From NCBI GenBank assembly GCA_024398135.1, contig CP073750.1, positions 1,860,001 through 1,924,000 on the forward strand: 64,000 nt of DNA, written 5' to 3'. Below the pieces are notes generated by a model that worked only from the letters and a program-made list of their open reading frames with translations, was not told the DNA's origin and did not search any database. The stretch is from a bacterium SCSIO 12643 (GTDB taxonomy: Bacteria > Bacteroidota > Bacteroidia > Flavobacteriales_G > Salibacteraceae). The stretch's first letter is position 1, and each line of letters begins with the position of its first letter. Both the position numbers and the translations under genes were made by a program. Shown piece after piece: positions 9,673 to 53,751 of this stretch.

Positions 9673-9685
9673 CAGCACAGACTCA

Positions 9686-9740
9686 GGTTGTCATCCGTCA
9701 TAGGACGGACAAGTCTTCCAGCGTAGCGATAATGGCAACC
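9686..9740. repeat. Nested intergenic hairpin
   Basis: An inner perfect hairpin, CCGTC-ATAG-GACGG (9695-9708), sits inside outer arms GGTTGTCAT (9686-9694) and ATGGCAACC (9732-9740), which pair with one G-T. The insertion between the inner hairpin and the right arm contains AGCGTAGCGATA. It looks like a degenerate member of the dispersed inverted repeats common between genes in Bacteroidota. It lies immediately 3' of the O-antigen ligase gene and marks the right edge of the accessory region. Confidence 0.45.
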
Positions 9741-9742
9741 GA

Positions 9743-11170: not shown

Positions 11171-11172
11171 AT

Positions 11173-12147: not shown

Positions 12148-12177
12148 GAAATAAAATTGAATTGATAATGACTCTCA

Positions 12178-12207
12178 CAAATTTAAGTTCATATTTAGAA
12201 CGTACAA
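12178..12207 (-). promoter_or_regulatory. Promoter of the wzz-ligase operon
   Basis: On the minus strand TTG (12205-12207) and TAAATTTG (12178-12185) are 19 bases apart, matching the Bacteroidota -33/-7 consensus. The expected message begins about 25 bases before the GTG start. Confidence 0.5.
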
Positions 12208-12279
12208 GTTTTTATAATCTGATCAAAAAGTGCATTGGAGTAATAATCATTTTCGTATTTTTCAACCAAAATACTTTTG

Positions 12280-16357: not shown

Positions 16358-16387
16358 TTTGGAAATATTGAAATTCTGCTACATTTG
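16358..16387 (+). promoter_or_regulatory. Promoter of the amidohydrolase pair
   Basis: TTTG (16358-16361) and TACATTTG (16380-16387) are separated by 18 bases, a full match to the Bacteroidota -33/-7 consensus. The ATG lies only four bases after the -7 box, so the message is predicted to be leaderless. Confidence 0.6.
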
Positions 16388-16391
16388 TCAG

Positions 16392-19300: not shown

Positions 19301-19403
19301 AATGATGCAGGCACAAAAGAATGGAGAAAAAACACAAAAGGTAAAGCATCAGGAACAACACGAGTATCACTGCGATAGCTTTGATTCTGAAACTGACTTT
19401 TAA
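16392..19403 (+). CDS. Exported two-unit amidohydrolase-like protein
   Basis: A 1003-residue protein with a signal peptide (MQKRIILSFLISFILFQANA). It contains two amidohydrolase-like units. In the first (about residues 25-430) the position of the metal-binding HxH is occupied by ELRS (residues 93-96), so this unit is probably inactive. The second (about residues 565-975) keeps PGIVDEHSH (H622, H624), then CHSYIQSE, TFTHILEGYK and the late SDD aspartate, a complete binuclear or mononuclear metal site of the imidazolonepropionase/dipeptidase type. It would act in the periplasm on an amide, peptide or cyclic substrate that cannot be specified. The start is the ATG at 16392; a longer TTG frame lies upstream. 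The next gene follows after 13 bases. Confidence 0.85.
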   Translation: MQKRIILSFLISFILFQANAQQITPINGVYTPEHTTYAFIHAHLIVSPEEEYSDGTLIIRDGKVVSSGTGIEVPHNAVVFDLKGKYIYPSFIELRSNYGMPEVEKKKKPLKPQYIAKNNGTLYWNDAIHPQVDYVNLFNANAKQSEKLRRLGFGTVLTHQYNGIMRGNAAIVSLGENKLGQAVLKPKGAAYYGFGRGNSTQLYPTSLMGSIALFRQTMYDADWYSNGNQSPVNYSLQAIADNKEIPQFFDARNYQAVLRAARLGEEFGRSMIATGGGDAYKHIEEIKASNIKLIVPLNFPKPYDVSDPLDAQYISLADLKHWELAPSNPAVVSQSGVEFALSASDNPKMFWKNLRKAIRYGLAPEDALKALTTTPATMLQSENLGTLKSGMYANFFITAEDVFLTDAKVLENWTLGQRNIIKDATTIDPTGNYNLNFGGVLYQMDVVQTEKGYAVSTTMGGTKEKPQKGEISIENNLMTIQFQNGNHQHEGPVRLVGKTNYKGKIIDGKLQDAKGNWSDWTAIKQKAISLTPYGDSLKPILQTGKVFYPNMSYGDTAVPQQQNYFIKNVRVWTCDSTGNYRGYVMVSNGKIEAVGERASTPEGYIEIDGTGLHITPGIVDEHSHIAIKNGVNEAGQNNSAEVRIGDVINPDDINIYRQLAGGVTSAQLLHGSANPIGGQSQVIKLRWGSAPEQMKLGDIKFIKFALGENVKQSNSDWRYTSRFPQTRMGVEQVYIDAFTRAKAYSEQWDAFNGATKKELKNGLQSPRRDLELETLAEILKGQRYITCHSYIQSEITMLMNVADSMGFRINTFTHILEGYKVADKLKAHGANASTFSDWWAYKFEVNDAIPYNAAILSKQGINTAINSDDAEMGRRLNQEAAKTVKYGGVSETEALKMITINPAKMLHIDDRVGSITVGKDADLVLWSGHPLSVYSHPLFTMIDGTIYYSQERDQQLQELIRKERQRIILAMMQAQKNGEKTQKVKHQEQHEYHCDSFDSETDF

Positions 19404-35198: not shown

Positions 35199-38100
35199 AT
35201 GGTGAAACAGTGGATTCGAATTGCAATTTTAGGGATTGCGATATTTCTAACGAGCAATATAAACGCACAGTTTTCAGACGATTTTTCTGATGGAGATTTT
35301 ACAAATAACCCGACCTGGACTGGAATGACATCACATTTTCAAGTGAATGGTTCCAATGAATTATGGTTAAATGCACCGGCTGTAACATCAACTTCAAGAT
35401 TGGTGACTGCGAGTCAGGCAATAGGAAATGCACAATATGACTTTAGAGTTAGAATGGATTTTAATCCTTCCACTTCGAATTACGCTAAAGTATATTTAAC
35501 TTCAACGGATAGTAATTTATCCGGGAGTTTAGATGGTTATTATGTAAGAATTGGAGGCGCATCCGGATCGGTAGATGATGTAAGCTTATATTATCAGTCG
35601 GGAACGAATTCAACTAAGATTATTGATGGAACTGATGGTACCGTAGCCTTAACTCCAGAATTAGATGTCCGTGTGACCAGAGATATGGCCGGGAATTGGG
35701 AATTGTTCATTGATACGGCTTTGAATGGCACATTTGTATCTGAAGGAACGGTGTTTAACAATCAAGCAACCACGTCCGATTATTTTGGAGTATATTGTAA
35801 ATATACGTCTACCCGAAGCGATAAATTTTTCTTCGATAATTTTAATGTAACGGGTGGTCCAATAATGGATGTTGATCCTCCGGTATTGGATAGTGCCAAA
35901 GCAACTTCTCTTACTCAGGTTGATGTTTATTTTAATGAGAAACTGGACCTGGTAACCGCTCAAACCGTATCAAATTACACTGTGAATTTAGGTGTTGGGA
36001 ATCCGCAAACTGCTACAATTGATTCGCAAGATAGTTCTATCGTGCATTTGACTTTATCATCTCCATTATCCAACAATACGACTTATAATTTAACCGTAGT
36101 GAATGTGGAAGATCTAAGTGGGAATGCAATAACGAATCAAAGTACCTCATTCACTACGAATGTTTCCGTTTCATATGATTATGGCGATGTTGTGATCAAT
36201 GAGATAATGGCAGATCCAGCTCCGGTTGTAGGATTACCTGATGCAGAGTTTATAGAACTTTATAATAATACCAATGGGACAGTTAATCTGGCTAATTGGT
36301 CGTATAAAGATGGAGGGTCATCTGTTGCACAATTACCAACTTTCAATTTGAATGCTGGAGCATATGTGATTTTATGCGATGAAGACGATACGACATTATT
36401 TAATGGTTTTGGAGATGTATTAGGATTATCTACCTGGCCCGCATTGAATAATAGTGGAGATCAATTGGGATTAAGGGATGCGAATAACCATCTGATTGAT
36501 TCAGTAAATTATACGGACACCTGGTATCAGGATGCATCCAAATCATCAGGAGGGTGGACTTTAGAAAGAATCAACCCTATGGACCCATGTAGCGATGCCA
36601 ATAACTGGAAAGCTTCACTGAATGCTAATGGAGGTACGCCTGGAATACAAAATAGTGTGTATAATAACCAACCGAATAATGCATTACCGGAAATAAGTTC
36701 TTTTTCCATTGTGTCAAATGATCAGGTCGAATTGCATTTTTCAAAATCTTTAGATACGAGCTTAGTTGCAGTTTCAAACTTTTCTATCGATAATGGCTTA
36801 AGTATAAGCTCAGTTCATATAGTAGGGTTAGATCAATTGATTGTGGAAGTGAATCCAATGATGACGGCCACAGATATTTACAATTTAGCTGTAACAGGTT
36901 TAGAGGATTGTTTTGGAAATGTGATGATCGATACGACCCTAAAAATTGCCATTGGTAGAGCTGCAGTAGCCTACGATCTAATTTTTACAGAAATATATCC
37001 AAATCCCAATCCGGTAAATATTGCTATCCCGGATGCAGAGTTTGTTGAAGTATATAACAGATCGCAAGATCCAATTACTTTGGGAGGGCTTACATTTAGT
37101 GACCGTAGTACTACCGTAAATTTACCAAATGAAGTTATTTTTCCTGGAGAGTATGTGGTGTTAACCGAGGATATTCATGCTGTAGATTTTGAAAAATTTG
37201 GTAGGGTGGTAGCTTTAACTTCCTGGCCATCGTTAAATAATTCGGGAGACCTGATTACATTGGCTGGTGTAAACGATACTATAGATATTGTACTATATAG
37301 TGATACCTGGTATGATGATTCTGATAAGAAGTCAAATGGATGGTCTTTAGAATTAATTAATCCGGATGTTTTGTGTTTGGGAGCCAATAATTGGACGGGA
37401 TCACAAGCCAATGATCAAGCTACTCCAGCGCAAGAAAACAGTGTGTTTGATCCTACGTTTGTAATGGACTTTAATCTGGAGTCTGCATCAGTTTTAGGGT
37501 TAAATAAAGTCGAATTGGTGTTTTCTAAAAATCTGGATATAAATACAGTTATTCCTAACAATTTTATATTCGATCAAGGTGTGTTGGTGAGCTCAATAAA
37601 CATGGATCCTGAAATATTGAATATTGTAGAGTTAACGATTACCCCACAATTAGAAGTTGGAACAGTCTATAAAGTAACAGTCAATGGAGTTTTGGATTGT
37701 GCAGGTGAAGTTTTAACTAATAATGTGGCAGAGGTAAAACTACCGGATTATCAGGATGCATTGATCAATGAGGTTTTATTTAATCCGAATACGGGAGGAA
37801 GCGATTTTGTGGAATTGTACAATAGAACTGCTCAGGATATAGATTTAAAAGATTGGAGCTTGCTGTATTTCAATAGTGCTGGAGACTCTGCATACAAGGT
37901 GATCACTACGACTTCATATGTATTAAAGCCAGGTGCATTTGTAGTATTAACAGAAGACAGCGCGAATATCAAATTTGAATATCCAAACAGTAAAGAGGGA
38001 ACGTTCTTATATATGGATTTACCCACCTATTCGAATGCTGAAGGAGATGTCGTTGTGTTAAATCAAATGGGGCTTTTAAATGATAGGTTCCAGTATAATG

Positions 38101-38582
38101 AGAATATGCATTTTGAATTATTAAATACGGTTAAAGGTGTTTCATTAGAAAGAATCAATTATTTACCTGGAGAAAACACAGGTAACAATTGGCATTCTGC
38201 AGCCTCAACATCGGGGTTTGCGACACCTGGGTTTAAGAATTCTCAGTATCTAACATCAAATACAACCGGGTCCAATGTGACCATTTCCCCAAAGACCTTT
38301 ACTCCAAATAATGATGGCTATAAAGATGTTCTTTCAATTGCATATAGCTTTAATTCTGAGGGTAATGTGGTGACACTGACTGTTCATAATGCAGATGGAC
38401 AATTGATCCGTACTTTGGTGAATAATCAATCTGTCGGCACAGAAGGTACATTTCAGTGGGACGGAATGAATGATAACAGAGAGTTAATGCCTACCGGAAT
38501 GTATATCATTTTGATGCGTGTATTTGATTTGGACAATAATCAACAAGTAATTAAGAATGTGGCAGTTTTAGCAATTCCTTAA
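35199..38582 (+). CDS. Large secreted multi-domain protein: Ig-like and lamin-tail repeats, FlgD-like C-terminus
   Basis: A 1127-residue exported protein. After the signal peptide (MVKQWIRIAILGIAIFLTSN) come a concanavalin-like N-terminal domain (FSDDFSDGDFTNNPTWTG), then alternating SbsA-type Ig-like domains (starting near residues 228, 498 and 760) and three lamin-tail domains (DVVINEIMADPAP, LIFTEIYPNPNPV and ALINEVLFNPNTGG). The last 100 residues (SPKTFTPNNDGYKDVLSI, then FQWDGMNDNRELMPTGMYI) are a FlgD-like Ig fold close to the gliding-motility-associated C-terminal type, probably its T9SS targeting or anchoring region. A surface or released adhesive role is plausible. It is followed by another lamin-tail gene about 110 bases downstream. 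Confidence 0.88.
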   Translation: MVKQWIRIAILGIAIFLTSNINAQFSDDFSDGDFTNNPTWTGMTSHFQVNGSNELWLNAPAVTSTSRLVTASQAIGNAQYDFRVRMDFNPSTSNYAKVYLTSTDSNLSGSLDGYYVRIGGASGSVDDVSLYYQSGTNSTKIIDGTDGTVALTPELDVRVTRDMAGNWELFIDTALNGTFVSEGTVFNNQATTSDYFGVYCKYTSTRSDKFFFDNFNVTGGPIMDVDPPVLDSAKATSLTQVDVYFNEKLDLVTAQTVSNYTVNLGVGNPQTATIDSQDSSIVHLTLSSPLSNNTTYNLTVVNVEDLSGNAITNQSTSFTTNVSVSYDYGDVVINEIMADPAPVVGLPDAEFIELYNNTNGTVNLANWSYKDGGSSVAQLPTFNLNAGAYVILCDEDDTTLFNGFGDVLGLSTWPALNNSGDQLGLRDANNHLIDSVNYTDTWYQDASKSSGGWTLERINPMDPCSDANNWKASLNANGGTPGIQNSVYNNQPNNALPEISSFSIVSNDQVELHFSKSLDTSLVAVSNFSIDNGLSISSVHIVGLDQLIVEVNPMMTATDIYNLAVTGLEDCFGNVMIDTTLKIAIGRAAVAYDLIFTEIYPNPNPVNIAIPDAEFVEVYNRSQDPITLGGLTFSDRSTTVNLPNEVIFPGEYVVLTEDIHAVDFEKFGRVVALTSWPSLNNSGDLITLAGVNDTIDIVLYSDTWYDDSDKKSNGWSLELINPDVLCLGANNWTGSQANDQATPAQENSVFDPTFVMDFNLESASVLGLNKVELVFSKNLDINTVIPNNFIFDQGVLVSSINMDPEILNIVELTITPQLEVGTVYKVTVNGVLDCAGEVLTNNVAEVKLPDYQDALINEVLFNPNTGGSDFVELYNRTAQDIDLKDWSLLYFNSAGDSAYKVITTTSYVLKPGAFVVLTEDSANIKFEYPNSKEGTFLYMDLPTYSNAEGDVVVLNQMGLLNDRFQYNENMHFELLNTVKGVSLERINYLPGENTGNNWHSAASTSGFATPGFKNSQYLTSNTTGSNVTISPKTFTPNNDGYKDVLSIAYSFNSEGNVVTLTVHNADGQLIRTLVNNQSVGTEGTFQWDGMNDNRELMPTGMYIILMRVFDLDNNQQVIKNVAVLAIP

Positions 38583-38693: not shown

Positions 38694-41534
38694 ATGAAGA
38701 GAATATTTACACTCGTATTGGTTTCAATACTTTTTACTGGGCTCACTGCCAATGCACAGTGGCTCATTTCAACTTCTGGAGCTACATCAGACACAGTAAC
38801 GTTTGATGCTTCTTTTACGGGAGTTAACGAGGGTGTTTTTGCCGGAGCAGGAATCGAAGCAATTCCAACGGTAGGACAACTTAACTCCAATGCATGGATG
38901 TTTACAGGGTTTAGCAATGGAAATACCATGTTTGGAGGATCATATAATTCAGGTGATTATGCAAAAGGTACATCTGCCGGAGGTGAGTTTTCGGGTGGTT
39001 TATATGCTTTTGAAGTGGCTGCTGGAGATACAGCGATGGGAATTCAACCAACAGGTAGTGATTTTACTCCTGGAGATTTAGATTTAAAAGTAGTAAATAC
39101 TACAGGGTCATCAGTTGACAGTGTGTTCATTTCCTATGAACTATGGGTAAACAATGATGCAGATAGAGCGAATTCTTTTGATTTATCTTACTCCATAAAT
39201 GGAGGTGCCTATGTACCTGTTTCAGCATTAAATTATACTTCTACAGAGACCTCACAAGGTTCTGTAATATGGGTTATGAATTCTAGAAGTACCGGATTAA
39301 ATATAAATCTAGCAAATAACGACACTTTACTATTTAGATGGTCAAGTGCTGATATTTCAGGATCTGGTGGTAGAGATGAATTTGCTTTAGATGATATTCA
39401 TGTAACGTTCACCGCATCTGCCCCAGTGAGTTCAGATACGACAAAACCAGAAATAGTTGATGCTGAATTCTTATCAGCTTCTTCTATTGTATTGGCATTT
39501 TCAGAGCCAGTAACTGCGACTTCAGCACAAAATGTTGCAAATTATTCTTTTTCTCCTTTATCTGCTGTGACCAATGCGGTATTGAATAGTACTTTGGATT
39601 CTGTAACTTTAACATTGACACCTGCGTTGGTATCAGGTACCTTGTATACGGTGAATATTATGAATATTGTGGATACATCATTAAACGCTAACATGATGGA
39701 CCCTGTAAGTGGAAATTTCTATTTTAATTCATATACAGGAACGGATTTAATGATTACAGAAATCTACCATAGTCAACCTTCAGGTGGAATTCAAGATATC
39801 GATTATTTTGAGTTATACAATTCATCTTCATCTCCAATTAGTTTAGCTGGTATGGAAATAACAAGTGGTGTTGAATTTTCGATAGATTCTAACTTGATTA
39901 TTCCAGGTAATGGATATTTGGTATTTGTAGAAAATATTGACTCTTTCAATCTGGCTTTTCCTTCGGTTACTAATGTAATTGAATATGATTTTGGATCTTT
40001 ATCAGGTGGTGGAGAAACTATTACTTTATCAAACACTCTTGGTGATGAAGTAGCATCTGTGGATTATGAGACTTCTGCTCCTTGGCCTGCATATTCAAAT
40101 GTTGAAGCAATTGAGTTATGTGATTTAACAACTGATTATACTGACGGAATGAATTGGTATGTTGCTGGAACGGTTTCTTCTACTGTAGCCGAGACTTTAT
40201 ATGGTACTCCTGGTTCAGCTAATTCATGTGCTGCACCTCCAGTGATCGCGACATATGATATTGAAGTTCTAAGAACTGTTGATATGAATGGAGAGCCAGA
40301 TTCATTAGATGTTTATTGTGCGATTGAAGGTATTGTTCATGGTAAAGATATGGATGGAAATGCTGGATATACTTTTGCTTTAATTGATGATACTAGAGGT
40401 ATTACTGTTCATAGCTTTGTTGATGTAGACAACTATGTAGTGAATGAAGGTGATGAGTTACGTGCAGTAGGATCTGTGAAGTTCTACAATGGTTTAACGC
40501 AGTTTAGAGTAGATTCAATCACTGTATTATCTACCGGAAACTGTATTGACTACCCGGAAGTAGTGTTTGAATTAAATGAAGAGACGGAGTCTGAAGCAAT
40601 CTATATAATGCAAGTAAAATTAGAAGATCCTTCAGCTTGGCCTGCTCCAGGTTCAAATGCAAACTTGAACATCATTACTATGGATGATGATACTTTATTA
40701 ATGAGAATTGATAAAGACACTAAAATTGCGGATACGATTACTTCTGCTCCTTCAGGATACTTTAACGTAAGTGGTATCGGAAGTCAATTTACTTTCTCAT
40801 CACCTTATGATGATGGATACCAAATCATGCCTCAGTTTGTTGCTGATATTGATACAGTACCAACGGATGCTTCAGGAATCTTTGTAAATGAAGCAATGGT
40901 AGATAATCAAACTGCAATTGCAGATCCACAAGGTGATTATGATTCTTGGATTGAAATCTATAACAGTACTTCAAATCCATTTGATTTAACCGGACACTTC
41001 TTCGGTAATGATGATACAATTTACCGTTTTGAAAGATGTATTCCTTCAGTTGTGGTTCCTGCAAATGGATACTTATTACTTTGGGCAGATGATGAAATGC
41101 AAGATGGGCCAGAGCACTTACCAATGATGTTAAATAATACTGATTACATTGGTTTAGTTACTAAAGATGCTGCTATCGTAGATACATTAGAGTGGGATTC
41201 TGCTCTTGCTGATGTTTCTTTTGGACACGATACAGACGGTTCTGGTACCTGGGTAAGCTTTGAGGAGTCAACTCCAAATGCGACTAACTCCGGAGGTGTG
41301 ATTTTATCTGTAATTTCTGTTGATCCGGTAAATGCACTTAGTGCTTATCCAAACCCGGTTTCAAATGGAAATGTAAACTTCAATAAAGTAATATCTTTTA
41401 ATATGTACAGTGTTACAGGTCAATTAATGATGCAAAGAAAAAATGTAAATCAATTGAATGTTTCTGATTTAGAAAAAGGTATTTATATCATTGAAACTAC
41501 TGACGGTGAAATCTTAAAAATGATTGTAAAATAA
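38694..41534 (+). CDS. Large secreted T9SS protein with Ig-like and two lamin-tail domains
   Basis: A 946-residue exported protein with signal peptide MKRIFTLVLVSILFTGLTAN, an N-terminal beta domain, an SbsA-like Ig domain near residue 245 (DTTKPEIVDAEFLSASSIV), a first lamin-tail domain near residue 350 (TDLMITEIYHSQPSGG), an OB-like domain near residues 520-620 (CAIEGIVHGKDMDGNAGYT, resembling DUF5689-type folds), a second lamin-tail domain near residue 725 (GIFVNEAMVDNQ), and a T9SS type A sorting domain in the last 70 residues (SAYPNPVSNGNVNF to GIYIIETTDGEIL). Its codon usage is strikingly uniform and A/T-rich, with repeated choice of gat, aat and gtt, which suggests high expression or slow divergence. 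It ends at a strong terminator. Confidence 0.88.
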   Translation: MKRIFTLVLVSILFTGLTANAQWLISTSGATSDTVTFDASFTGVNEGVFAGAGIEAIPTVGQLNSNAWMFTGFSNGNTMFGGSYNSGDYAKGTSAGGEFSGGLYAFEVAAGDTAMGIQPTGSDFTPGDLDLKVVNTTGSSVDSVFISYELWVNNDADRANSFDLSYSINGGAYVPVSALNYTSTETSQGSVIWVMNSRSTGLNINLANNDTLLFRWSSADISGSGGRDEFALDDIHVTFTASAPVSSDTTKPEIVDAEFLSASSIVLAFSEPVTATSAQNVANYSFSPLSAVTNAVLNSTLDSVTLTLTPALVSGTLYTVNIMNIVDTSLNANMMDPVSGNFYFNSYTGTDLMITEIYHSQPSGGIQDIDYFELYNSSSSPISLAGMEITSGVEFSIDSNLIIPGNGYLVFVENIDSFNLAFPSVTNVIEYDFGSLSGGGETITLSNTLGDEVASVDYETSAPWPAYSNVEAIELCDLTTDYTDGMNWYVAGTVSSTVAETLYGTPGSANSCAAPPVIATYDIEVLRTVDMNGEPDSLDVYCAIEGIVHGKDMDGNAGYTFALIDDTRGITVHSFVDVDNYVVNEGDELRAVGSVKFYNGLTQFRVDSITVLSTGNCIDYPEVVFELNEETESEAIYIMQVKLEDPSAWPAPGSNANLNIITMDDDTLLMRIDKDTKIADTITSAPSGYFNVSGIGSQFTFSSPYDDGYQIMPQFVADIDTVPTDASGIFVNEAMVDNQTAIADPQGDYDSWIEIYNSTSNPFDLTGHFFGNDDTIYRFERCIPSVVVPANGYLLLWADDEMQDGPEHLPMMLNNTDYIGLVTKDAAIVDTLEWDSALADVSFGHDTDGSGTWVSFEESTPNATNSGGVILSVISVDPVNALSAYPNPVSNGNVNFNKVISFNMYSVTGQLMMQRKNVNQLNVSDLEKGIYIIETTDGEILKMIVK

Positions 41535-43144: not shown

Positions 43145-43771
43145 ATGTTGATATCCCGAATGATCTCGTATATCACGCATCCGATTTTGATCGTGACCTA
43201 TATGCTGGCCTTTATACTTTTTCAAAAAGAGAGCTATCTATATTATACCATTACTCCAAGTGGTCGTTGGTTTTTCTTAATGATAGCGGTTTTATTGACT
43301 GTAGTGGCTCCACTCATTTCGGTTGGGTATTTGGTTTACACGAAGCAGATTTCGAGCTTTTATATGGATCAGAGGCAAGAACGAATTATCCCGATGACCA
43401 TTTCCGCAGCCTATACTTTTGGGTTGTATTATATGTTCTTGAAATTTTCAATGCCACCTGTAATTATGGCCATTGTAGGTGTTGGAGTAATTGGAGTAAT
43501 CATTACGCTTCTGATTACTTTATTTTGGAAAATAAGTGCACATATGATGGGTATCGCTGGGCTTAGCGGAGCGATTTTGGGAATATCACAAAGCTTTCAT
43601 CCAATCAGCGACTTTATTGTAATGAGCCTATTTGTTTTGGCTGGATTTGTTGGTACGGCAAGAATCAAACAAGACGCACATACCTTAAATCAAATCTTGA
43701 TAGGATGGTTGATAGGATTTATTATTTCTTATGGAGGAATGATTTACCTAATGGATAGATCATTTACCTAA
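43145..43771 (+). CDS. PAP2-like integral membrane protein
   Basis: A 208-residue protein with six transmembrane helices. The fifth-loop segment KISAHMMGIAGLSG and the later ARIKQDAHTLNQILIGWLIGF look like relatives of the second and third motifs of membrane phosphatidic-acid phosphatases, with the histidines retained, while the first motif (K-x6-R-P) is only partly visible (MDQRQERIIP). A lipid or prenyl-phosphate phosphatase is therefore possible but not proven. It starts two bases after rpoN. The gene is convergent with the outer-membrane protein gene and their ends overlap by four bases. Confidence 0.65.
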   Translation: MLISRMISYITHPILIVTYMLAFILFQKESYLYYTITPSGRWFFLMIAVLLTVVAPLISVGYLVYTKQISSFYMDQRQERIIPMTISAAYTFGLYYMFLKFSMPPVIMAIVGVGVIGVIITLLITLFWKISAHMMGIAGLSGAILGISQSFHPISDFIVMSLFVLAGFVGTARIKQDAHTLNQILIGWLIGFIISYGGMIYLMDRSFT

Positions 43772-44448
43772 AAAGGTACAATAGAAAGAGCTACCGATAC
43801 TTGTTTCATTTCAGGACCTCTACCTGGAATAAAGAACTCCGTTAGCGAGAAGAATGTACTAAAATTGATTTTTCCATAACCTGCTCTGGCAATTAAACCC
43901 GCACGAACATTGTTTAAATCCGGAAAATAATACGTTTTGTATTTCACGTTGTTTTTATCTACCAGTTTATCATGCGCATCAAACTGGAAACCCACTTTCG
44001 CACCAACAGAAAATTTCCAACGATATCCCCAATCATCTTGTTTTGAACGATATCTTAATTCGATAGGAACCTCAACCCAAGAAGTACTGATTTTATTATG
44101 ATCGTATGTAGTCTCAGGGTCTAACCAGTCAGAGTATAAAAATGATTTGGTAGTATCTCGTCTGATTTGTTTGTTTGAGTAGTAACTCTGTGTACTGAAT
44201 CCAACACCGACAGCTCCACTAAATCCACTTTGTCCGAAAAGCTTGTCGTAAAAAATCTGAATATTTAATCCGTTATTGTACCATTGAAAATCTGTAAATC
44301 CCGGACGACTGGTAAACGTTTCGTAGCCAAAATCAATCAGCATATGATCCTGATGTGTATTACGTTCTACCTTTTTAGTTCCTTCCTGAGCAATTGAAGT
44401 ATTCGCTAAAAGAATACAGGTAAATAATAAAACGGAAAATTGTTTCAT
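43768..44448 (-). CDS. Outer-membrane beta-barrel protein (porin-like)
   Basis: A 226-residue protein with signal peptide MKQFSVLLFTCILLANTSIA and a mature part of alternating polar/hydrophobic strands with aromatic girdles (INFSTFFSLTEFFIP, WKFSVGAKVGFQFDA), ending in VSVALSIVPF with a C-terminal phenylalanine. This is a small 8- to 10-strand barrel of the porin-family type. No function can be assigned; the PorT subgroup was considered but its motifs are not seen. It is divergent from the first gene of the VCBS array, and each of the two genes has its own -7 box in the shared 120-base region. Confidence 0.75.
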   Translation of the reverse strand: MKQFSVLLFTCILLANTSIAQEGTKKVERNTHQDHMLIDFGYETFTSRPGFTDFQWYNNGLNIQIFYDKLFGQSGFSGAVGVGFSTQSYYSNKQIRRDTTKSFLYSDWLDPETTYDHNKISTSWVEVPIELRYRSKQDDWGYRWKFSVGAKVGFQFDAHDKLVDKNNVKYKTYYFPDLNNVRAGLIARAGYGKINFSTFFSLTEFFIPGRGPEMKQVSVALSIVPF

Positions 44449-44466
44449 GAATTCAATTTAAGTGGG

Positions 44467-44497
44467 CAAAAGTATCTAATTCAACTTACCGTGGCAA
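44467..44497 (-). promoter_or_regulatory. Promoter of the porin-like gene
   Basis: On the minus strand TTG (44495-44497) and TACTTTTG (44467-44474) are 20 bases apart. The -7 box is about 18 bases before the ATG. Confidence 0.5.
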
Positions 44498-44515
44498 GAG
44501 TAAACTATTTATTGA

Positions 44516-44542
44516 TTTGTACGTCTTTAGAGGGTATATTTG
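44516..44542 (+). promoter_or_regulatory. Promoter of the first VCBS array gene
   Basis: TATATTTG (44535-44542) is a full -7 match. TTTG at 44516-44519 gives a 15-base spacing, and the TTG at 44512-44514 gives 20. It starts the plus-strand array and may serve more than one gene of it. Confidence 0.48.
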
Positions 44543-44571
44543 TGTTGAAAATTAACCAATTTTAAAGTTTA

Positions 44572-46833
44572 ATGTTAAAATCGCTGCTCTCTACATTTTT
44601 TTTAGGGTTGATTTCATTCTTTTTGAGTGCGCAGAATTTGTATAAATATGCACTAAATGATAGCGTTTCCATTACCAAGGATGGAGTGGTTTTAAAAAAT
44701 GCATGGGCAGGTGGATTAAACAATCCGCAGTTTAACCATATGGATGTCAACTTTGACTGCGCAAAGGATATTATCATTTTTGATCGTTCGTCTAATGTTG
44801 TTCGAGTATACCTAAATGATAGCATAGTAGATAATCCGTCCTATGTATATGCACCTGAATATTCTCGTTTTTTTCCCGATGAAATTGTCCATTTCATGTT
44901 ATTAAGGGATTATAACAATGATGGCAAGGAAGATATTTTCACATATAATAGTGCAGGATTAAGAGTATTTAAAAATGTAAGTGATACAGTTTTAAAATTT
45001 GAAAAGGTTACGGATTATTTACATGCAACTGTGCATGGAAACCCTAATAGTGCGGTATATACTATTTCATTAGATTACCCATGTATTGATGATATTGATT
45101 ATGATGGTGATTTGGACATTATTTCGTTTAATGTCTATGGTGTTCATGCCAATCTGTATGAAAATGTATCTACGAATTTGGAGGATTTGGATTTTGTGGG
45201 GGATAATTCATGTTGGGGTAAGTTTTATGAAAACCAGTTAAATGACTCTTTAGTTTTAGGGGCGAGTTGTAAAGGAGGAAAGTCAGTTGATTCGGTAGGA
45301 GGAAACGTATCCAGACATCTTGGAGCATCTTTAACCACGTTAGATTTACATGGAAATAATTTAAAAGACCTTCTGATAGGAGATGTGGGATATAACAATG
45401 TAAGTATGCTTAGAAATGGGGGAACCCAAACCGATGCGTATATGATTACGGTAGACTATCATTACCCGACTGGTCCAGATGCGGTGGATATGCCCACATT
45501 TCCGGTGGCATTTTATTTAGATGTAGACAATAATGATCGAAAAGACTTGATTGTGTCTCCAAATGAGAGAGATTATGGAATGGATACCGGAAATGTCTGG
45601 ATGTATAAAAATTTTGGATCCAATAACCTTCCAAATTTTCAGCTGGTTAAGAAGGACTTTTTAGTTAGTGAACAATTGGATGTAGGAACAATGGCATTAC
45701 CTGTATTAGCAGATATTTCAGGAGATCAAATTCCAGATTTAATTATTGGAAATATTGGATATTTTGAAAGCTATAACTCGGTTACGTTTCAAGTAGAATA
45801 TGATTCTCGTATTGCTTATTATCGGAATACAGGAACCGCAGAAAACCCGGCTTTTGAATTTGTGACCGATGATTTGGCAGGAATATCGGGGTCAGACTTT
45901 GTACGTGTAGCCCCAACATTTGCGGATTTGGATGGAGATGGTGACAACGATATGATTTTCGGAGAAAGTAATGGGTCGCTAAGTTTCTATAGAAATATTG
46001 CTCCACCGAATCAAGAAGCAGATTTTGTATTGGTGACGGATACTTTTATGGGCCAGCTTTTTGGAGTTCAACCTACTCCGTATCTATTTGATGTGGATGG
46101 AGATAATGCAATGGATTTATTGGTGGGTCAAAAGAATGGGAATATTAGACTGTATTTGAATCAAGGGGATAGTACCAATCCAATTTACACACTTTCAGCT
46201 ACAGATACTTTAGGGGGAATTTATAATTATTATCCGGGTTATGAGAGCAATGCGGTTCCGTTTATTGGTAAAGTTGATGGTGGACCAGATAATGTCTTGG
46301 TAGTGGCTGATGGCATTGGCAACCTGATGTACTATGATGGATTGGATAATAATTTAATGGGAATCTATACGCGTGTTGATAGTATGAAAGTTTCTAATTC
46401 AATGATCGGGGTGACTGGAGCAAACCTGAATAGTAATGATAGTCTGGAATTAATTGTTGGGGAAAGAACGGGAGGTTTGATGTATTTAAACATGGATGAA
46501 GTTGGATATAACTTCAGTCCTTATCCAAGAGATACTTGTAACCTTATGGTGAGTGTTTCAGATGGTTTAGATGGAAGCAAAACGAGTAGTTTTGATATTT
46601 ATCCTAATCCAACAAATGGAACTTTTAAAGTAAAAGTATTGGCCCAAAGTTATGGAGCAGGAGATTTAATAATTTTGGATATGGCCGGTAGAACGGTGTT
46701 TAGACAAGCCATTCAACTTACTAAAAGTGCTAATGAAATTGAATTACATGCTACAGGGATGTCTTCTGGAGTATACGTGGTTCAAATTCAATTGAACAAC
46801 CAACTATTAAGGGAGAAATTAGTCATTCGATAG
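44572..46833 (+). CDS. VCBS/FG-GAP-repeat T9SS protein, array copy 1
   Basis: A 753-residue secreted protein. Signal peptide MLKSLLSTFFLGLISFFLSA; mature start QNLYKYALNDS. The body is a chain of FG-GAP/VCBS repeats with calcium-type D-x-D/N-x-D/N-G loops at about residues 58 (DVNFDCAKD), 113 (DYNNDGKED), 174 (DIDYDGDLD), 258, 317 (DVDNNDRKD), 381 (DISGDQIPD), 452 (DLDGDGDND) and 507 (DVDGDNAMD), so a beta-propeller with bound calcium is expected. Conserved cysteines lie at 63, 171, 214, 233 and 656. The last 80 residues (FDIYPNPTNGTFKVKV to LREKLVIR) are a T9SS type A sorting domain. Function is unknown; such proteins often bind carbohydrate or protein at the cell surface. Confidence 0.88.
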   Translation: MLKSLLSTFFLGLISFFLSAQNLYKYALNDSVSITKDGVVLKNAWAGGLNNPQFNHMDVNFDCAKDIIIFDRSSNVVRVYLNDSIVDNPSYVYAPEYSRFFPDEIVHFMLLRDYNNDGKEDIFTYNSAGLRVFKNVSDTVLKFEKVTDYLHATVHGNPNSAVYTISLDYPCIDDIDYDGDLDIISFNVYGVHANLYENVSTNLEDLDFVGDNSCWGKFYENQLNDSLVLGASCKGGKSVDSVGGNVSRHLGASLTTLDLHGNNLKDLLIGDVGYNNVSMLRNGGTQTDAYMITVDYHYPTGPDAVDMPTFPVAFYLDVDNNDRKDLIVSPNERDYGMDTGNVWMYKNFGSNNLPNFQLVKKDFLVSEQLDVGTMALPVLADISGDQIPDLIIGNIGYFESYNSVTFQVEYDSRIAYYRNTGTAENPAFEFVTDDLAGISGSDFVRVAPTFADLDGDGDNDMIFGESNGSLSFYRNIAPPNQEADFVLVTDTFMGQLFGVQPTPYLFDVDGDNAMDLLVGQKNGNIRLYLNQGDSTNPIYTLSATDTLGGIYNYYPGYESNAVPFIGKVDGGPDNVLVVADGIGNLMYYDGLDNNLMGIYTRVDSMKVSNSMIGVTGANLNSNDSLELIVGERTGGLMYLNMDEVGYNFSPYPRDTCNLMVSVSDGLDGSKTSSFDIYPNPTNGTFKVKVLAQSYGAGDLIILDMAGRTVFRQAIQLTKSANEIELHATGMSSGVYVVQIQLNNQLLREKLVIR

Positions 46834-46895
46834 GTAGTTATTGAATGATTCTAATGAAAAATGCCTTTATACATGAATTAAACCGACCAAAATAT

Positions 46896-49148
46896 ATGAG
46901 TTATAGATTTATACTTTTAATATTAATATCATTCGCATTTTCCGCAAATGCACAACATACGTTTAAATACACCCGAAATGACAGTATTGAGGTAGAGAAG
47001 AATGGGGTCGTATTAAAAAATGCATGGGCTGGTGGGTTGAATAATCCTCAGCTGAATCATATGGATGTCAATTATGATTGTATCAAGGACATAGTCATTT
47101 TTGATCGATCATCAGAAGTGGTACGTGTTTATTTAAACGATGGTATAGTGGATGATCCATCTTATACATATGCACCGGAATATGCCGACTTTTTTCCAAA
47201 GGATTTAAAGCAATTTATTTTATTGAGAGATTATAATAACGATGGGAAAGAAGACATTTTTACGTTTAATGGTGGAGCAGGATTAAGGGTGTATAAAAAT
47301 GTGAGTGATTCTGTGATGAAGTTTGAGCAAGTTACAGATTATTTACGTGCTGGAGCTAACGGAGCTGTGTATATTACCTATGTAGATTATCCATGTATTG
47401 AAGATATTGATAACGATGGAGATTTAGATATTTTGGCGTTTAATCAATTTGGGATCAAGTTGATATTTTATGAGAATATTACACCTGCAAATCAGGATAC
47501 ATTAATTTTTAGAACAGATGGATCTTGTTGGGGTAAGTTTTATGAAAATCAGCTGAATGATTCATTGGTATTGGGTGCGAGTTGTAAAACAGGTGTGTCA
47601 GGAAATCCGGGAGGGGGTAATGTCGCACGTCATTTAGGGGCAACGGTGAATGCTTTGGACCTTTATGGCAATGGATTAAAAGATGTTCTATTAGGGGACG
47701 TGGGCTACAATAACCTAATCATGGTAAGAAATGGAGGAACCATAAATGATGCGTATATGATTACGGTGGAGTATCATTATCCTGCAGGTCCTGATGCTGT
47801 TGAAATACCAACCTTCCCGGGGTCATTTTTTATTGATGTAGATAACAATGATAGAAAAGATTTAATAGCCGTATCTAATGAGAGAGACTACGGAATGGAT
47901 ACCGGAAATGTCTGGATGTATAAAAACTTTGGAGCGAATAATTTACCAAATTTTCAATTAGTTAAAAAGAACTTTTTGGTAGATGAACAGGTGGACGTAG
48001 GTACAATGGCATTGCCGGTTCTTGCAGATATTTCAGGGGATCAAATTCCGGACTTAATTATCGGTAATTTGGGATATTTTGAGAGTTATAATTCGAATAC
48101 ATTTCAGGTGGTTCATAATTCCAGAATAGCATATTTTAAAAATACCGGAACTGCAACAAACCCAATCTTTGAATTTGTTACGGATGATTTGGCGGGAATT
48201 TCTTCGACCGGGTTTACCAGAATTGCACCTACAATTGCAGATTTAGATGGAGATGGAGACAACGATATGATCTTTGGGGAAAATAATGGTTCTCTGAGTT
48301 TTTATCGAAATATCGCACCACCGAATCAAGAGGCTGACTTTGTATTGGTAGAAGATACTTTTATGGGGCAACTGTTTGGAGTGCAACCTACACCATTGTT
48401 GTTTGATGTGGATGGAGATAATGCGAAAGATTTACTGGTCGGACAAAAGAATGGTAACATTAGATTATATCTAAACCAGGGAGATAGTGCCAATCCAATT
48501 TATACACTCTCTGCTACGGATACTTTGGGGGGAATATTCAATTACTATCCGGGTAAAAAAAGTAATGCAGTACCGTTTATAGGGAAAGTAGATGGTGGTC
48601 CGAATAATGTTTTAGTGGTAGCTGATGGTGTAGGAAACTTATTGTATTACGATGGAATCGATAACAATCTAATGGGAACCTATACGCGAATTGACAGTAT
48701 GAAAGTATCTAATTCAATGGTTGGTGTTACCGGAGCAAATTTGGATGGAAGTGATAGTTTAGAATTGATCGTTGGTGAACGTACGGGAGGTATAATGTAT
48801 TTAAATATGGATACTACTGGATATGCCTATAGTCCTTACCCAAGAGATACCTGTGCACCTATTGTTGATGATGTAGAAGATTTACAATGGAACAATGCCA
48901 GAGACTTAAGTGTTTATCCAAACCCGAATGATGGTACCTTTCGAGTTAAAGTTCATGTTCAGAAAGCAGATGTTGGAGAATTAACCATCGTAGACATGGC
49001 AGGTAGAAAGGTGTTAAGACAAAAAATCAATTTAGCTAAAAATGCCAACGAAATCGAAATATCTGACTCTGGTATTCCGAACGGGGCCTATATCATACAA
49101 ATCCGATTGAATAATCAGTTATTGAGAGAAAAGCTGATTGTTCGATAA
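46896..49148 (+). CDS. VCBS/FG-GAP-repeat T9SS protein, array copy 2
   Basis: A 750-residue paralogue of the preceding gene, collinear over its whole length. It shares the N-terminal motif VVLKNAWAGGLNNPQ, the calcium-loop series, the cysteines and the sorting domain (LSVYPNPNDGTFRVKVHVQK to LREKLIVR). Differences concentrate between residues 125 and 250 of the alignment. The start is taken at the ATG at 46896, which gives a normal signal peptide (MSYRFILLILISFAFSANA); an ATG at 46845 would add 17 residues and is less likely. The gap after copy 1 is 62 bases and no terminator or -7 box was found in it, so read-through from copy 1 is plausible. Confidence 0.87.
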   Translation: MSYRFILLILISFAFSANAQHTFKYTRNDSIEVEKNGVVLKNAWAGGLNNPQLNHMDVNYDCIKDIVIFDRSSEVVRVYLNDGIVDDPSYTYAPEYADFFPKDLKQFILLRDYNNDGKEDIFTFNGGAGLRVYKNVSDSVMKFEQVTDYLRAGANGAVYITYVDYPCIEDIDNDGDLDILAFNQFGIKLIFYENITPANQDTLIFRTDGSCWGKFYENQLNDSLVLGASCKTGVSGNPGGGNVARHLGATVNALDLYGNGLKDVLLGDVGYNNLIMVRNGGTINDAYMITVEYHYPAGPDAVEIPTFPGSFFIDVDNNDRKDLIAVSNERDYGMDTGNVWMYKNFGANNLPNFQLVKKNFLVDEQVDVGTMALPVLADISGDQIPDLIIGNLGYFESYNSNTFQVVHNSRIAYFKNTGTATNPIFEFVTDDLAGISSTGFTRIAPTIADLDGDGDNDMIFGENNGSLSFYRNIAPPNQEADFVLVEDTFMGQLFGVQPTPLLFDVDGDNAKDLLVGQKNGNIRLYLNQGDSANPIYTLSATDTLGGIFNYYPGKKSNAVPFIGKVDGGPNNVLVVADGVGNLLYYDGIDNNLMGTYTRIDSMKVSNSMVGVTGANLDGSDSLELIVGERTGGIMYLNMDTTGYAYSPYPRDTCAPIVDDVEDLQWNNARDLSVYPNPNDGTFRVKVHVQKADVGELTIVDMAGRKVLRQKINLAKNANEIEISDSGIPNGAYIIQIRLNNQLLREKLIVR

Positions 49149-49155
49149 ATTGTAG

Positions 49156-49200
49156 ATACTTCGATAATTCATATTAGATGAGGGTTTATTCTCGAAGTAT
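49156..49200. repeat. Inverted repeat between array copies 2 and 3
   Basis: ATACTTCGA (49156-49164) and TCGAAGTAT (49192-49200) form a perfect 9-base stem with a 27-base loop. There is no T tract on the plus strand, so it is a weak terminator candidate at best. It could affect mRNA processing or expression of copy 3. Confidence 0.4.
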
Positions 49201-49226
49201 GTACGCATAGATAAACCGAATTTAAT

Positions 49227-51494
49227 ATGAAATTAAAACACAAATTTACTTTCATAGTGTTACTGCTGTCTACAATTTCAGTGAATGCCCAACACTTATT
49301 TAAGTACACCCGTAATGATAGTATTGAGGTTGAAAAAGCCGGAACTGTATTCAAAAATGCATGGGCCGGTGGGATGAATAACCCTCAGCTGAATCATATG
49401 GATGTCAACTTTGACTGTGTCAAAGATATTGTGATTTTTGATCGTTCGTCTAATGCAGTTCGCGTGTATTTAAACGATAATATTTCGGATGACCCTTCTT
49501 ATACTTATGCTCCGGAGTATGCGCGTTTTTTTCCAGATGATTTGAAGAATTTTATGTTGCTCAGAGATTACAACCATGATGGTAAGGAAGATATTTTTAC
49601 ATCACGTATTCTTGGATTCCGCGTATATAGGAATGTAAGTGATACCGCATTGAAATTTGTTGAAATGACAGATTATCTTAAATCGAATACAAATGGAGAA
49701 CCAACTAGTGCGGTATACGTTCTTCCAGTAGATTATCCTTGTATTGATGATATAGATTCTGATGGTGATTTGGACATATTGAATTTTAATCAGGCAGCGA
49801 CCGAGCCATATTTTTATGAAAATATAACACCATCCAATAATCTGGATACCATCATATTAGAGTCGGATAAATCTTGTTGGGGTAAATTTCATGAAGACCA
49901 TATGACGGATTCTTTGGTTTTGAATTCCTATTGTGGAGGACGTGTATCAGGAAATCCCGGAAGTGGTAATGTCGCTAGACATCCTGGAGCAACTTTGACA
50001 ACACTGGATTTATTTGGAAATGGATTAAAAGATGTTCTATTAGGGGATGTAGGTTATAATAATTTGGTGATGTTAAGAAATGGAGGAGACATTGACGAAG
50101 CTTATATGACCACTGTAAATTATCATTATCCTGACCCTTATCCGGTAGATATGCCCACATTTCCGGCCTCATTCTTTTTAGATGTAGATAATAATTCAAG
50201 GAATGATTTGGTTGTGGCGCCAAATGAACGGGATAATGGAATGGATACAGGAAACGTATGGTATTACAAGAATTTTGGAGCGAATAATCATCCCAACTTT
50301 CAATTACAAAAAAAGAATTTTTTGGTTGGTGAACAAGTGGATGTAGGTACTATGGCTTTACCCGTATTGGCGGATATATCAGGAGATCAAATTCCAGACT
50401 TGATTATTGGAAATATAGGGTATTTTGAAAATTATGATCCTTATAATTTTATAACAACGTATAACTCTAGAATAACATATTATAGAAATAATGGTACAGC
50501 TACTAATCCTTCATTCGAATTTGTGACAGATGATTTGGCAGGGATTTCCTCTACGGGATTTACCAGAATTGCTCCGGCTATTGCCGATTTGGATGGAGAT
50601 GGTGATAATGATATGATTTTCGCTGAGAATAATGGGGCCTTAAGCTTTTATCGAAATATTGCACCTCCCAATCAAGAAGCAGATTTTGTACTTGTGGAAG
50701 ATACGTTTATGGGACAGTTATTTGGGATACAGCCTACTCCTTTTTTGTTTGATGTAGATGGAGATAATGCTAAAGATTTATTGGTAGGTCAGCATAACGG
50801 AAATATTCGATTGTATTTAAATCAGGGAGACAGCACAAATCCTATCTATACCCTTTCTGCAACCGATACTTTAGGTGGGATATTTAATTATTATCCTGGT
50901 TACAAAAGTAATGCGGTACCATTTATTGGTAAGATTGATGGCGGAACAAATAACATATTGGTGATAGCTGATGGAGATGGAAACTTAATGTATTACGATG
51001 GGTTAGATAATAACTTTATGGGAAATTTCACGTTGATTGACAGTATGAAAGTGTCGAATTCTATGATAGGAGTGACTGGTGCAAACCTAGATGGAAGTGA
51101 TAGTTTAGAGTTGATTGTTGGTGAACGTACTGGTGGTTTAATGTATTTAAATATGGATGCGGTAGGATATGCTTATAGTCCGTATCCCAGAGACACTTGT
51201 CCTCCTATTATTGATGATATAGAAGATTTACATAAGAATAATGGAAATGACCTGAGCATTTATCCAAATCCAAATGACGGAACATTTAAAGTTAAAATAC
51301 AAGTTCAAAAGTCTGGCGCTGGAACTTTAACCATAGTCGATATGGCTGGAAGAAGGGTTGTTAGACAAGTAATCAATTTGTCCAAAGGACTCAATGAAAT
51401 TGATATTTCAGGAACTGGTGTTCAAAATGGAGTTTATATTGTTCAAATTCAGGTAGGGGGGCAGCTATTAAGAGAAAAGTTGATTGTTCGTTAA
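49227..51494 (+). CDS. VCBS/FG-GAP-repeat T9SS protein, array copy 3
   Basis: A 755-residue paralogue with signal peptide MKLKHKFTFIVLLLSTISVN. It is closest in feel to copy 2: both share V-E-K after the first strand and the DGSDSLELIVGERTGG block, and have nearly the same tail (LSIYPNPNDGTFKVKIQVQK to LREKLIVR). It carries the same calcium loops and cysteines. The stretch around residues 150-250 is again the most variable part and contains its own CGGRVSGNPGSGN insertion in place of the copy 1 sequence. The gene ends eight bases before the start of copy 4. Confidence 0.87.
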   Translation: MKLKHKFTFIVLLLSTISVNAQHLFKYTRNDSIEVEKAGTVFKNAWAGGMNNPQLNHMDVNFDCVKDIVIFDRSSNAVRVYLNDNISDDPSYTYAPEYARFFPDDLKNFMLLRDYNHDGKEDIFTSRILGFRVYRNVSDTALKFVEMTDYLKSNTNGEPTSAVYVLPVDYPCIDDIDSDGDLDILNFNQAATEPYFYENITPSNNLDTIILESDKSCWGKFHEDHMTDSLVLNSYCGGRVSGNPGSGNVARHPGATLTTLDLFGNGLKDVLLGDVGYNNLVMLRNGGDIDEAYMTTVNYHYPDPYPVDMPTFPASFFLDVDNNSRNDLVVAPNERDNGMDTGNVWYYKNFGANNHPNFQLQKKNFLVGEQVDVGTMALPVLADISGDQIPDLIIGNIGYFENYDPYNFITTYNSRITYYRNNGTATNPSFEFVTDDLAGISSTGFTRIAPAIADLDGDGDNDMIFAENNGALSFYRNIAPPNQEADFVLVEDTFMGQLFGIQPTPFLFDVDGDNAKDLLVGQHNGNIRLYLNQGDSTNPIYTLSATDTLGGIFNYYPGYKSNAVPFIGKIDGGTNNILVIADGDGNLMYYDGLDNNFMGNFTLIDSMKVSNSMIGVTGANLDGSDSLELIVGERTGGLMYLNMDAVGYAYSPYPRDTCPPIIDDIEDLHKNNGNDLSIYPNPNDGTFKVKIQVQKSGAGTLTIVDMAGRRVVRQVINLSKGLNEIDISGTGVQNGVYIVQIQVGGQLLREKLIVR

Positions 51495-51501
51495 AGCATA
51501 T

Positions 51502-53751
51502 ATGATTTTTAAATTTAAGTTAATTACCATCATATTTACCTTATCAGCATTTTCTGTGAATGGGCAACATTTCTATAAGTACACCCAAAATGACAATGTT
51601 AAGGTGGAGAAAGATGGTGTGGTACTTAAAAATGCATGGGCAGGTGGACTGAATAACCCGCAGGTGAATCATATGGATGTTAATTTTGATTGCGTCAAAG
51701 ATCTGGTGATTTTTGATCGTTCAGCGAATGTGGTTAGAGTGTATTTGAATGATAGTATTGCTGATACCCCATCATATACATATGCGCCAGAATATTCGCA
51801 TTTTTTTCCTGATGATATAGTGCATTTCATGTTGTTGAGAGATTACAATCAAGACGGAAAGGAGGATATTTTTACGTTCAATATAGCTGGAATGCGTGTA
51901 TATCAAAATATTAGTGATACCGTATTAAAGTTTGAAGAGATGACAGATTACCTGCGCGCAAGTGTTTATGGTGATCCTACAAGTGCCGTATATGCGATTT
52001 CTTTGGATTATCCGTGTATTGATGATTTGGATAGTGATGGAGACCTGGACATTTTATCATTCAATATAGGTGGGGTCATGGCAAATTTCTATGAAAATAT
52101 AACACCTCCTGATAATCTGGATACTTTGATATTTGAATCAAATAGATCTTGTTGGGGAAGATTTAAAGAAGATCAAATGACAGACTCTATTATCCTGGGG
52201 GTAAGTTGTAAAACGTCAAATGGTGGAGGGAATGTAGCCCGGCATCCCGGAGCAACGGTCATCGCTTTAGATTTACATGGAAATGGATTGAAAGACTTGC
52301 TAGTAGCTGATCCCAAGTATAAGAATTTGGTGATGTTAAAAAATGAAGGTACGCCTACCGATGCTTACATGACCACTGTGGAGTATCATTATCCCACTGG
52401 GCCAAATCCTGTGGATATGCCCACGTTTCCAGCAGCATTTTTCTTAGATGTAGATAACGATTCCAAAAATGATTTGGTGGTAGCACCGAACGAAAGAGAT
52501 TATGGATTGGATACCGGGAATGTGTGGTTATACAAAAATGTTGGCGTCAATGATATTCCAAATTTTCAGTTAACCAAGAAAAGCTTTTTAGTGGATGAAC
52601 AAGTAGATGTAGGTACCATGGCATTACCCGTTTTAGCTGATATATCAGGAGATCAAATTCCGGATTTAATTATTGGCAACATTGGGTATTTTGAGAGTTA
52701 TAATCCCACCACCTTTCAGGTAAAATACAATTCTCGTCTGGCTTATTATAGAAATAATGGTACTGCTACCCATCCGTCATTTGAATTTGTAACGGATGAT
52801 TTGGCTGGAGTTTCATCATTAGGATTTATCCGAGTTGCACCAACTTTTGGAGATTTGGATGGAGATGGGGATAATGATATGATTTTAGGAGAAAGTAATG
52901 GATCATTAAGTTTCTATCGAAATATAGCTCCTCCTGATCAGGAAGCAGATTTTGTATTGGTTGAAGATACTTTTAAAGGCCAATCATTTGGAATACAACC
53001 TTCACCCTTGCTATTTGATGTAAATGGTGACAATGCTAAAGATTTGTTAGTTGGGCAAATGAACGGAAATATTAGGTTGTATTTAAATCAGGGAGATAGT
53101 ACCAATCCTGTCTATACAATTTCCGCTACAGATACTTTGGGTGACATATTTAACTATTATCCAGGAGAGCATAGTCATGCAGTTCCATTTATAGGGAAGA
53201 TTGATGGCGGAACCAATAACACATTGGTAATCGCTGATGGTATTGGTAATCTGTTGTATTATGATGGTCTGGATAACAATTTAATGGGGACTTATACACG
53301 AATAGACAGTATGAAAGTTTCTAACTCAATGATTGGGGTGACCGGTGCAAATTTGGATGGGAGTGATAGTTTAGAGCTTATTGTTGGTGAACGTACCGGA
53401 GGTTTAATGTATTTGAATATGGATGCTTTGAAATATGCATATAGTCCATACCCTAAAGATATTTGTGTGATTCGTGAGGAAGATTCAAGCGGGTGTGTAA
53501 CAGATAAATTAGATATTTACCCGAATCCCAATAATGGAAATTTTAGAGTTAGGTTTAATATTCCGTATTCCGGGGATGGGGATTTGGTGATATTTGATAT
53601 GGCCGGTAAAACAATATTTCGGGAACCAATATATGCAGTAAAAGGAAGGAATGTAATACAGGTTTCTAATTTGGAAATTTCGTCAGGATTTTATGTAGCG
53701 CGCATTGAGGTTCAAGGTCAGTTGTTTAGAGCGAAATTGATCATGGAGTAA
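51502..53751 (+). CDS. VCBS/FG-GAP-repeat T9SS protein, array copy 4
   Basis: A 749-residue paralogue with signal peptide MIFKFKLITIIFTLSAFSVN. The propeller region is collinear with copies 1-3, but the segment just before the sorting domain is different (ICVIREEDSSGCVTDKLDI, with two cysteines not found in the others), and the sorting domain ends in RAKLIME rather than REKL(I/V)(I/V)R. The start is the ATG at 51502, seven bases after the stop codon of copy 3; the frame itself is open further upstream from a TTG. Copies 3 and 4 are therefore almost certainly on one transcript. Confidence 0.87.
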   Translation: MIFKFKLITIIFTLSAFSVNGQHFYKYTQNDNVKVEKDGVVLKNAWAGGLNNPQVNHMDVNFDCVKDLVIFDRSANVVRVYLNDSIADTPSYTYAPEYSHFFPDDIVHFMLLRDYNQDGKEDIFTFNIAGMRVYQNISDTVLKFEEMTDYLRASVYGDPTSAVYAISLDYPCIDDLDSDGDLDILSFNIGGVMANFYENITPPDNLDTLIFESNRSCWGRFKEDQMTDSIILGVSCKTSNGGGNVARHPGATVIALDLHGNGLKDLLVADPKYKNLVMLKNEGTPTDAYMTTVEYHYPTGPNPVDMPTFPAAFFLDVDNDSKNDLVVAPNERDYGLDTGNVWLYKNVGVNDIPNFQLTKKSFLVDEQVDVGTMALPVLADISGDQIPDLIIGNIGYFESYNPTTFQVKYNSRLAYYRNNGTATHPSFEFVTDDLAGVSSLGFIRVAPTFGDLDGDGDNDMILGESNGSLSFYRNIAPPDQEADFVLVEDTFKGQSFGIQPSPLLFDVNGDNAKDLLVGQMNGNIRLYLNQGDSTNPVYTISATDTLGDIFNYYPGEHSHAVPFIGKIDGGTNNTLVIADGIGNLLYYDGLDNNLMGTYTRIDSMKVSNSMIGVTGANLDGSDSLELIVGERTGGLMYLNMDALKYAYSPYPKDICVIREEDSSGCVTDKLDIYPNPNNGNFRVRFNIPYSGDGDLVIFDMAGKTIFREPIYAVKGRNVIQVSNLEISSGFYVARIEVQGQLFRAKLIME

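Follow-up and report, generated by a model that had tools for sequence, protein, structure and literature searches.

Four adjacent, co-oriented genes encode closely related FG-GAP/VCBS propeller proteins that carry sorting domains of the type IX secretion system (T9SS), have been maintained under purifying selection, and diverge from one another at unequal rates in the two halves of the passenger. In our view the genes probably arose by tandem expansion, in this lineage, of a family found across the class, whose members would be calcium-loop FG-GAP/VCBS propellers exported by the T9SS. The four are likely expressed as one transcript, and their products probably serve as a surface binding scaffold in which the second half is constrained.

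Four tandem genes for putative secreted propeller proteins

A sequence-only reading of the window (the whole 64,000-nucleotide stretch of DNA that was analyzed) had described four collinear paralogues in one direction, and its coordinates proved exact: the four open reading frames are all on the plus strand, are intact, and together span positions 44572 to 53751 (Table 1). Their products are 70 to 76% identical in pairwise comparisons over 744 to 752 aligned codons, which is far above chance. For copy 4 the ATG at 51502 is more likely to be the start codon than the TTG at 51484.

Table 1. Positions in the window of the propeller genes, their parts, and the adjoining barrel gene
Feature	Positions	Strand	Remarks
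Outer membrane beta-barrel protein (PF13568)	43768..44448	-	226 aa; head to head with copy 1
Divergent intergenic region	44449..44571	.	123 bp; one TTG-spacer-TAnnTTTG match per strand, + at 44512, - at 44497
Copy 1 (A)	44572..46833	+	753 aa; FG-GAP/VCBS propeller protein, signal peptide, type A C-terminal domain (CTD)
Passenger first half, copy 1 (residues 40-340)	44689..45591	+	Diverges about twice as fast between copies
Passenger second half, copy 1 (residues 345-645)	45604..46506	+	Kept alike between copies
Copy 2 (B)	46845..49148	+	767 aa as first ORF; Met at 46896 abuts signal peptide and is the likelier start
Copy 3 (C)	49227..51494	+	755 aa
Copy 4 (D)	51502..53751	+	749 aa from ATG 51502; ORF opens at TTG 51484, overlapping copy 3
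Por_Secre_tail (T9SS type A sorting domain)	copy 1 46597..46827; others 48912-49142, 51258-51488, 53515-53742	+	

Every copy has four stretches that match FG-GAP_3 (PF13517), at 62.7 to 77.2 bits versus a cutoff of 26.9 (E values of 5e-17 to 1.5e-21). The common N-terminal block that had been noted is present in all four copies, with M for L in copy 3. The shared sorting domain was also borne out, because all four copies exceed the cutoffs for both Por_Secre_tail of Pfam (34.0 to 46.1 bits versus 27) and the type A model TIGR04183 (41.8 to 49.5 bits versus 23). None of the four had a match up to an E value of 1 to the type B model TIGR04131. By eye, the signal peptides end ahead of a glutamine (...SA-Q, ...NA-Q, and ...NG-Q); of 86 family rows, 83 have this residue at copy 1 position 21. 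A glutamine after the signal peptide is the Q-rule of the Bacteroidetes signal peptidase I, as given in PMC5837995.

Two other features in the sequence-only reading need rewording. DxDxDG-type loops do occur in series in the copies, as had been stated for calcium loops, but they belong to the FG-GAP propeller repeats. The cysteines described as shared among the copies include C214 and C233 (copy 1 numbering), which nearly all family members have (84 and 85 of 86 rows, respectively), whereas C63, C171, and C656 are found in these four copies alone (4 of 86 rows). C63 sits in the first calcium-type loop, at a position where most family rows have glycine, and it might, as a guess, form a second disulfide with C171 in the four copies.

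The flavobacterial-type promoter pattern consists of TTG, a spacer, and TAnnTTTG. The window contains 7 matches on one strand and 8 on the other, of which one per strand falls between positions 43000 and 54500, both inside the 123-bp divergent region upstream of copy 1. Intergenic gaps between the copies are 11, 78, and 7 bp. Because the gaps are short and promoter matches near the genes occur only in the divergent region, the four copies probably share one transcript driven from 44449 to 44571. Scanning for promoters and terminators with an Escherichia coli-type consensus gave no excess over shuffled sequences.

Selection and duplication history

The ratio of nonsynonymous to synonymous divergence (omega) was 0.09 to 0.14 in all six pairs of copies, with the proportion of synonymous differences (pS) at 0.64 to 0.69, and among the copies no 60-codon window had pN greater than pS. 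Where the copies agree in amino acid they use the same codon in a fraction of 0.537, versus 0.477 expected from codon usage; the corresponding values for the copies and the congener G001 are 0.421 and 0.431. Thus, synonymous sites of the four copies are near saturation but short of complete. The wide synonymous divergence and retained function that had been proposed are both upheld by these values, and dN/dS over whole copies is nowhere near one.

Because dN/dS is this low at near-saturated synonymous sites, the copies are not decaying. Decay of duplicates does occur in the family: in locus L062 of the relative G003 (10201-12343) the second tandem copy contains a TGA and is split into two ORFs, of 438 and 285 aa. 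In the window all four frames are open and omega is low in every pair, which refutes decay there and leaves it scarcely conceivable as an account of the four copies.

Checking copy number in relatives, as the sequence-only reading had recommended, revealed a class-wide family that is usually represented once. In a class-wide draw at 95% completeness, 119 of 148 genomes had a match, usually one, and 8 had at least three (matches, not genes). Matches at an E value of 1e-20 or better were present in 56 of 60 genomes (the window's included), mostly one or two per genome, and in each of 25 genomes of the taxonomic family sampled at a completeness of at least 90% (the window's included). The window genome has four full-length members, all at this locus.

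In a tree of 63 rows the four copies form one clade (support of 100/100) with copy 1 outermost, and the single copies of the two other sampled species of the genus (G001 and G002; 44 to 45% identity) are sister to that clade (100/100). On this phylogeny, the four copies arose within the genus by lineage-specific tandem expansion, from one gene to four. The duplications had been called old, which holds insofar as synonymous sites are near saturation, but the tree places all of them after the split from the two congeners. Independent tandem sets appear in G005 (100/100), G013 (100/99), and G015 (98/96). An earlier duplication, in the common ancestor of the genera g3 and g9, produced two clades of 13 rows, one upstream and one downstream, and the upstream-downstream order is identical in 13 of 13 genomes. 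The trees omit both fragments of the broken G003 copy, and the homologues of G034, G037, G048, and G053 and a second one of G023 were outside the fetched set.

Uneven divergence of the two passenger halves

Protein distance between the four copies was 0.376 in the first half and 0.179 in the second, a ratio of 2.10 (block bootstrap interval of 1.59 to 2.90, which is partly post hoc as the half limits were chosen after the identity profile). The same ratio was 0.73 to 1.40 in 12 of 13 other sets; the 13th, a tandem pair in G005, had a ratio of 2.26. (In this comparison the g9 sets omit G024 and G004, the 'up' sets also omit the incomplete G030 row, and the g10 set omits G011.) Between species the ratio was 1.13 for the four copies versus G001, 1.15 for the four copies versus G002, and 0.92 for G001 versus G002. 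The most divergent parts between the copies include the sorting domains and the linker preceding them.

Old gene conversion might have kept the second halves alike. Locus L046 of G005 (genes at 6841-9054 and 9296-11512) proves that the process operates in the family, and over much of the same half: pS is 0.00 to 0.30 over residues ~321 to 560, whereas the flanking 40-codon windows have pS of 0.62 to 0.94. This is plainly a sharp gene-conversion tract that covers much of the second half. However, in the window copies pS is equal in both halves (difference of -0.029, -0.082 to 0.027). For the second half, the residual codon identity of 0.134 (0.081 to 0.190) lies well below the 0.353 expected if that half were younger by the amount its protein distance implies, and the synonymous ratio was as low as the protein ratio in 1.65% of bootstraps. 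In addition, the longest identical run is 35 nucleotides among the window copies versus 163 in G005. Conversion is therefore an improbable cause of the similarity here. Since pS is the same in both halves and the codons do not make the second half younger, the slow second half looks like constraint after duplication, with the caveat that saturation makes the age estimate rough.

Possible roles of four copies

The domain makeup suggests a route for the proteins. Sec would export each product, with cleavage ahead of the glutamine, and the type IX system would carry it over the outer membrane by means of the type A CTD, after which it would be displayed on the surface, or released from it, as a calcium-stabilized binding scaffold. 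After duplication, the first half would have been freer to vary, whereas the second would have stayed alike in all four copies, as expected if it forms a common face for contact or assembly. The sequence-only reading had suggested that four retained copies imply distinct ligands or a multi-part surface structure. The four copies may have distinct ligands. The uneven halves fit either suggestion, but simple dosage, or a partner that all copies bind through the second half, would fit them equally well.

A dosage explanation, in which all copies do the same job, more of the surface protein is useful, and first-half differences are tolerated drift, is a possibility to be taken seriously even though we think it the less likely one. 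The copies are closely spaced in one direction and dN/dS is low everywhere. Among the positions at which at least 80% of the other 82 rows agree on one residue, only 7 differ between the four copies, and copy-specific changes are similar in number (9, 8, 7, and 9). Yet dosage alone predicts no twofold tighter half, an asymmetry that orthologues lack, and the near-saturated synonymous sites indicate that all four copies have long been kept. Tandem copies and the clear conversion tract in G005 might also bring to mind variable surface antigen cassettes, with copies donating sequence by recombination to an expressed one. Such an arrangement is very improbable here, because a separate start, signal peptide, and sorting domain are present in each copy, and recent conversion among the four is not seen. 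A constrained second half within four displayed or released scaffolds thus remains the reading that we prefer.

Comparison with known proteins and secretion systems

Like other VCBS/FG-GAP (integrin-type) beta-propellers (PF13517 and PF01839), the copies have FG-GAP_3 stretches and serial DxDxDG-type loops; unlike that superfamily, they add a T9SS tail. Their assignment to the propeller class is by sequence profile, and a closed ring of blades is putative. A classification by Pereira and Lupas (2021, PMC8023676) groups VCBS propellers with integrin-type propellers and tachylectins, which makes a binding role plausible. An AlphaFold2 model of the propeller from seven sequences was of low confidence (mean pLDDT of 53.9, pTM of 0.44), too low to count blades or to locate the calcium sites and the two halves in the fold. 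Foldseek searches with this model matched propeller proteins, with TM-scores of at most 0.30 among the 50 PDB matches listed, and against viral models the same low-confidence query matched propeller and repeat proteins with low TM-scores. A sequence search of solved structures returned three chains of C-terminal domains (E value of 0.0004 at best) and a chance galactokinase match.

The copies share the tail, the signal peptide, and the presence of a T9SS marker in the genome with known type A CTD cargo (TIGR04183 and PF18962), but differ from it in being without a known enzymatic domain. As described in PMC9143113, PorU links type A cargo of Porphyromonas gingivalis to A-LPS, and for type B cargo the anchor is a PorP-like barrel, in pairs such as SprB-SprF and PorP-PG1035. 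As with sprB-sprF, a gene for a putative secreted surface protein adjoins an outer membrane barrel gene in the window. However, the cargos of SprB-SprF and PorP-PG1035 have type B tails and PorP/SprF barrels, whereas here the tails are type A and the barrel is of the PF13568 type, in a head-to-head gene arrangement.

A conserved neighboring barrel gene

Of 39 same-family loci (the window and 38 fetched ones), 33 have a barrel gene of this kind head to head with a propeller gene; the gap is at most 273 bp at 32 of these and 1452 bp at the other. Five of the 6 loci that lack an adjoining barrel (L053, L061, L067, L069, and L079) are second copies, and in each of those genomes the barrel adjoins the other copy, at a different place; for the sixth, L080, a match to the barrel model was absent throughout its genome, G023. 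Counted by genome, barrel and propeller adjoin in 33 of 34 members of the taxonomic family, or in 34 of 35 when G034, where they are adjacent by match coordinates, is added. An rpoN neighbor was found at 10 of the 38 fetched loci (some cut by contig ends), so the barrel-propeller pair is kept also where that context is missing. Among 25 fetched loci from outside the taxonomic family, L097 alone had a barrel-model match, to a longer protein lying ~1.5 kb away, although barrel relatives were often present elsewhere in those genomes. The pairing therefore characterizes a single taxonomic family.

The product of 43768-44448 matches the PorT/SprT model (NF052311) weakly, at 16.8 bits against a cutoff of 125, and was rejected as PorT/SprT; a separate gene in the genome scores 200.6 bits. 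Single-sequence structure prediction for the barrel gave a mean pLDDT of 29.4, too low for the model to be of use.

As a guess, the barrel is a candidate partner of the shared second half. It is conceivable, though we consider it unlikely, that the propellers of this taxonomic family work with the PF13568 barrel as a dedicated module at the surface, in which the barrel would hold or gate the type A propellers via their second half, the first half would vary specificity, and tandem duplication with occasional conversion of the docking half would diversify the set. Such a module would be the type A equivalent of SprF and SprB. Plain common descent of gene order offers an alternative account of the adjacency.

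Other T9SS arrays in the genome

Six further stretches of the window genome, picked because sorting domains clustered there, hold tandem or nearby T9SS paralogues in 5, 6, 3, 4, 2, and 2 copies. Such tandem sets are therefore common in this genome, and multiplicity by itself says little about distinct ligands or a multi-part structure. The sets include five copies of ~1120 aa, one of them cut by the end of the stretch (L106); three of ~460 aa (L108); four of ~990 to 1170 aa (L109); and two giant paralogues of 1642 and 2494 aa (L111). In L107 (G000:C1:351500-360500), an array of six small T9SS proteins, many pairs align well only over the last 75 to 100 residues (66 to 93%), with full-length pairs at 41 to 63%. 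This is the reverse of the pattern in the window array, in which the sorting domains rank with the most divergent parts.

Other large proteins are encoded within the window. Lamin Tail Domains and Big_5 occur in the products of two adjoining genes (35199-38582 and 38694-41534), of which the first has an FlgD/CHU_C-like C terminus and the second a T9SS type A tail. A 1014-aa protein (16359-19400) has amidohydrolase matches, the best stretches of which are near its C-terminal end.

The window genome has at least 150 Por_Secre_tail matches, and its PorT/SprT equivalog, the T9SS marker and the sole component searched, is well above the cutoff. Of the 148 genomes sampled across the class, 138 likewise have the marker above the cutoff, which leaves little contrast for judging T9SS dependence of the family. 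No paper joining T9SS with VCBS/FG-GAP or describing this family was found in one library of open-access literature.

Implications

The original observation is confirmed, and the find is mostly ordinary because tandem sets of secreted proteins are common here; it has a few testable oddities. The kept barrel neighbor, the uneven halves, and the conversion in a relative are new here and are useful leads. If the barrel link is inherited gene order only, there is little beyond an ordinary tandem family. Even so, the locus is a clear example of a T9SS cargo family that spans the class and has been repeatedly duplicated in tandem, with one half held alike after duplication in two lineages, apparently by constraint in one and by gene conversion in the other. 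The barrel and the propeller together offer a testable pair for learning how surface proteins of Bacteroidota may diversify.
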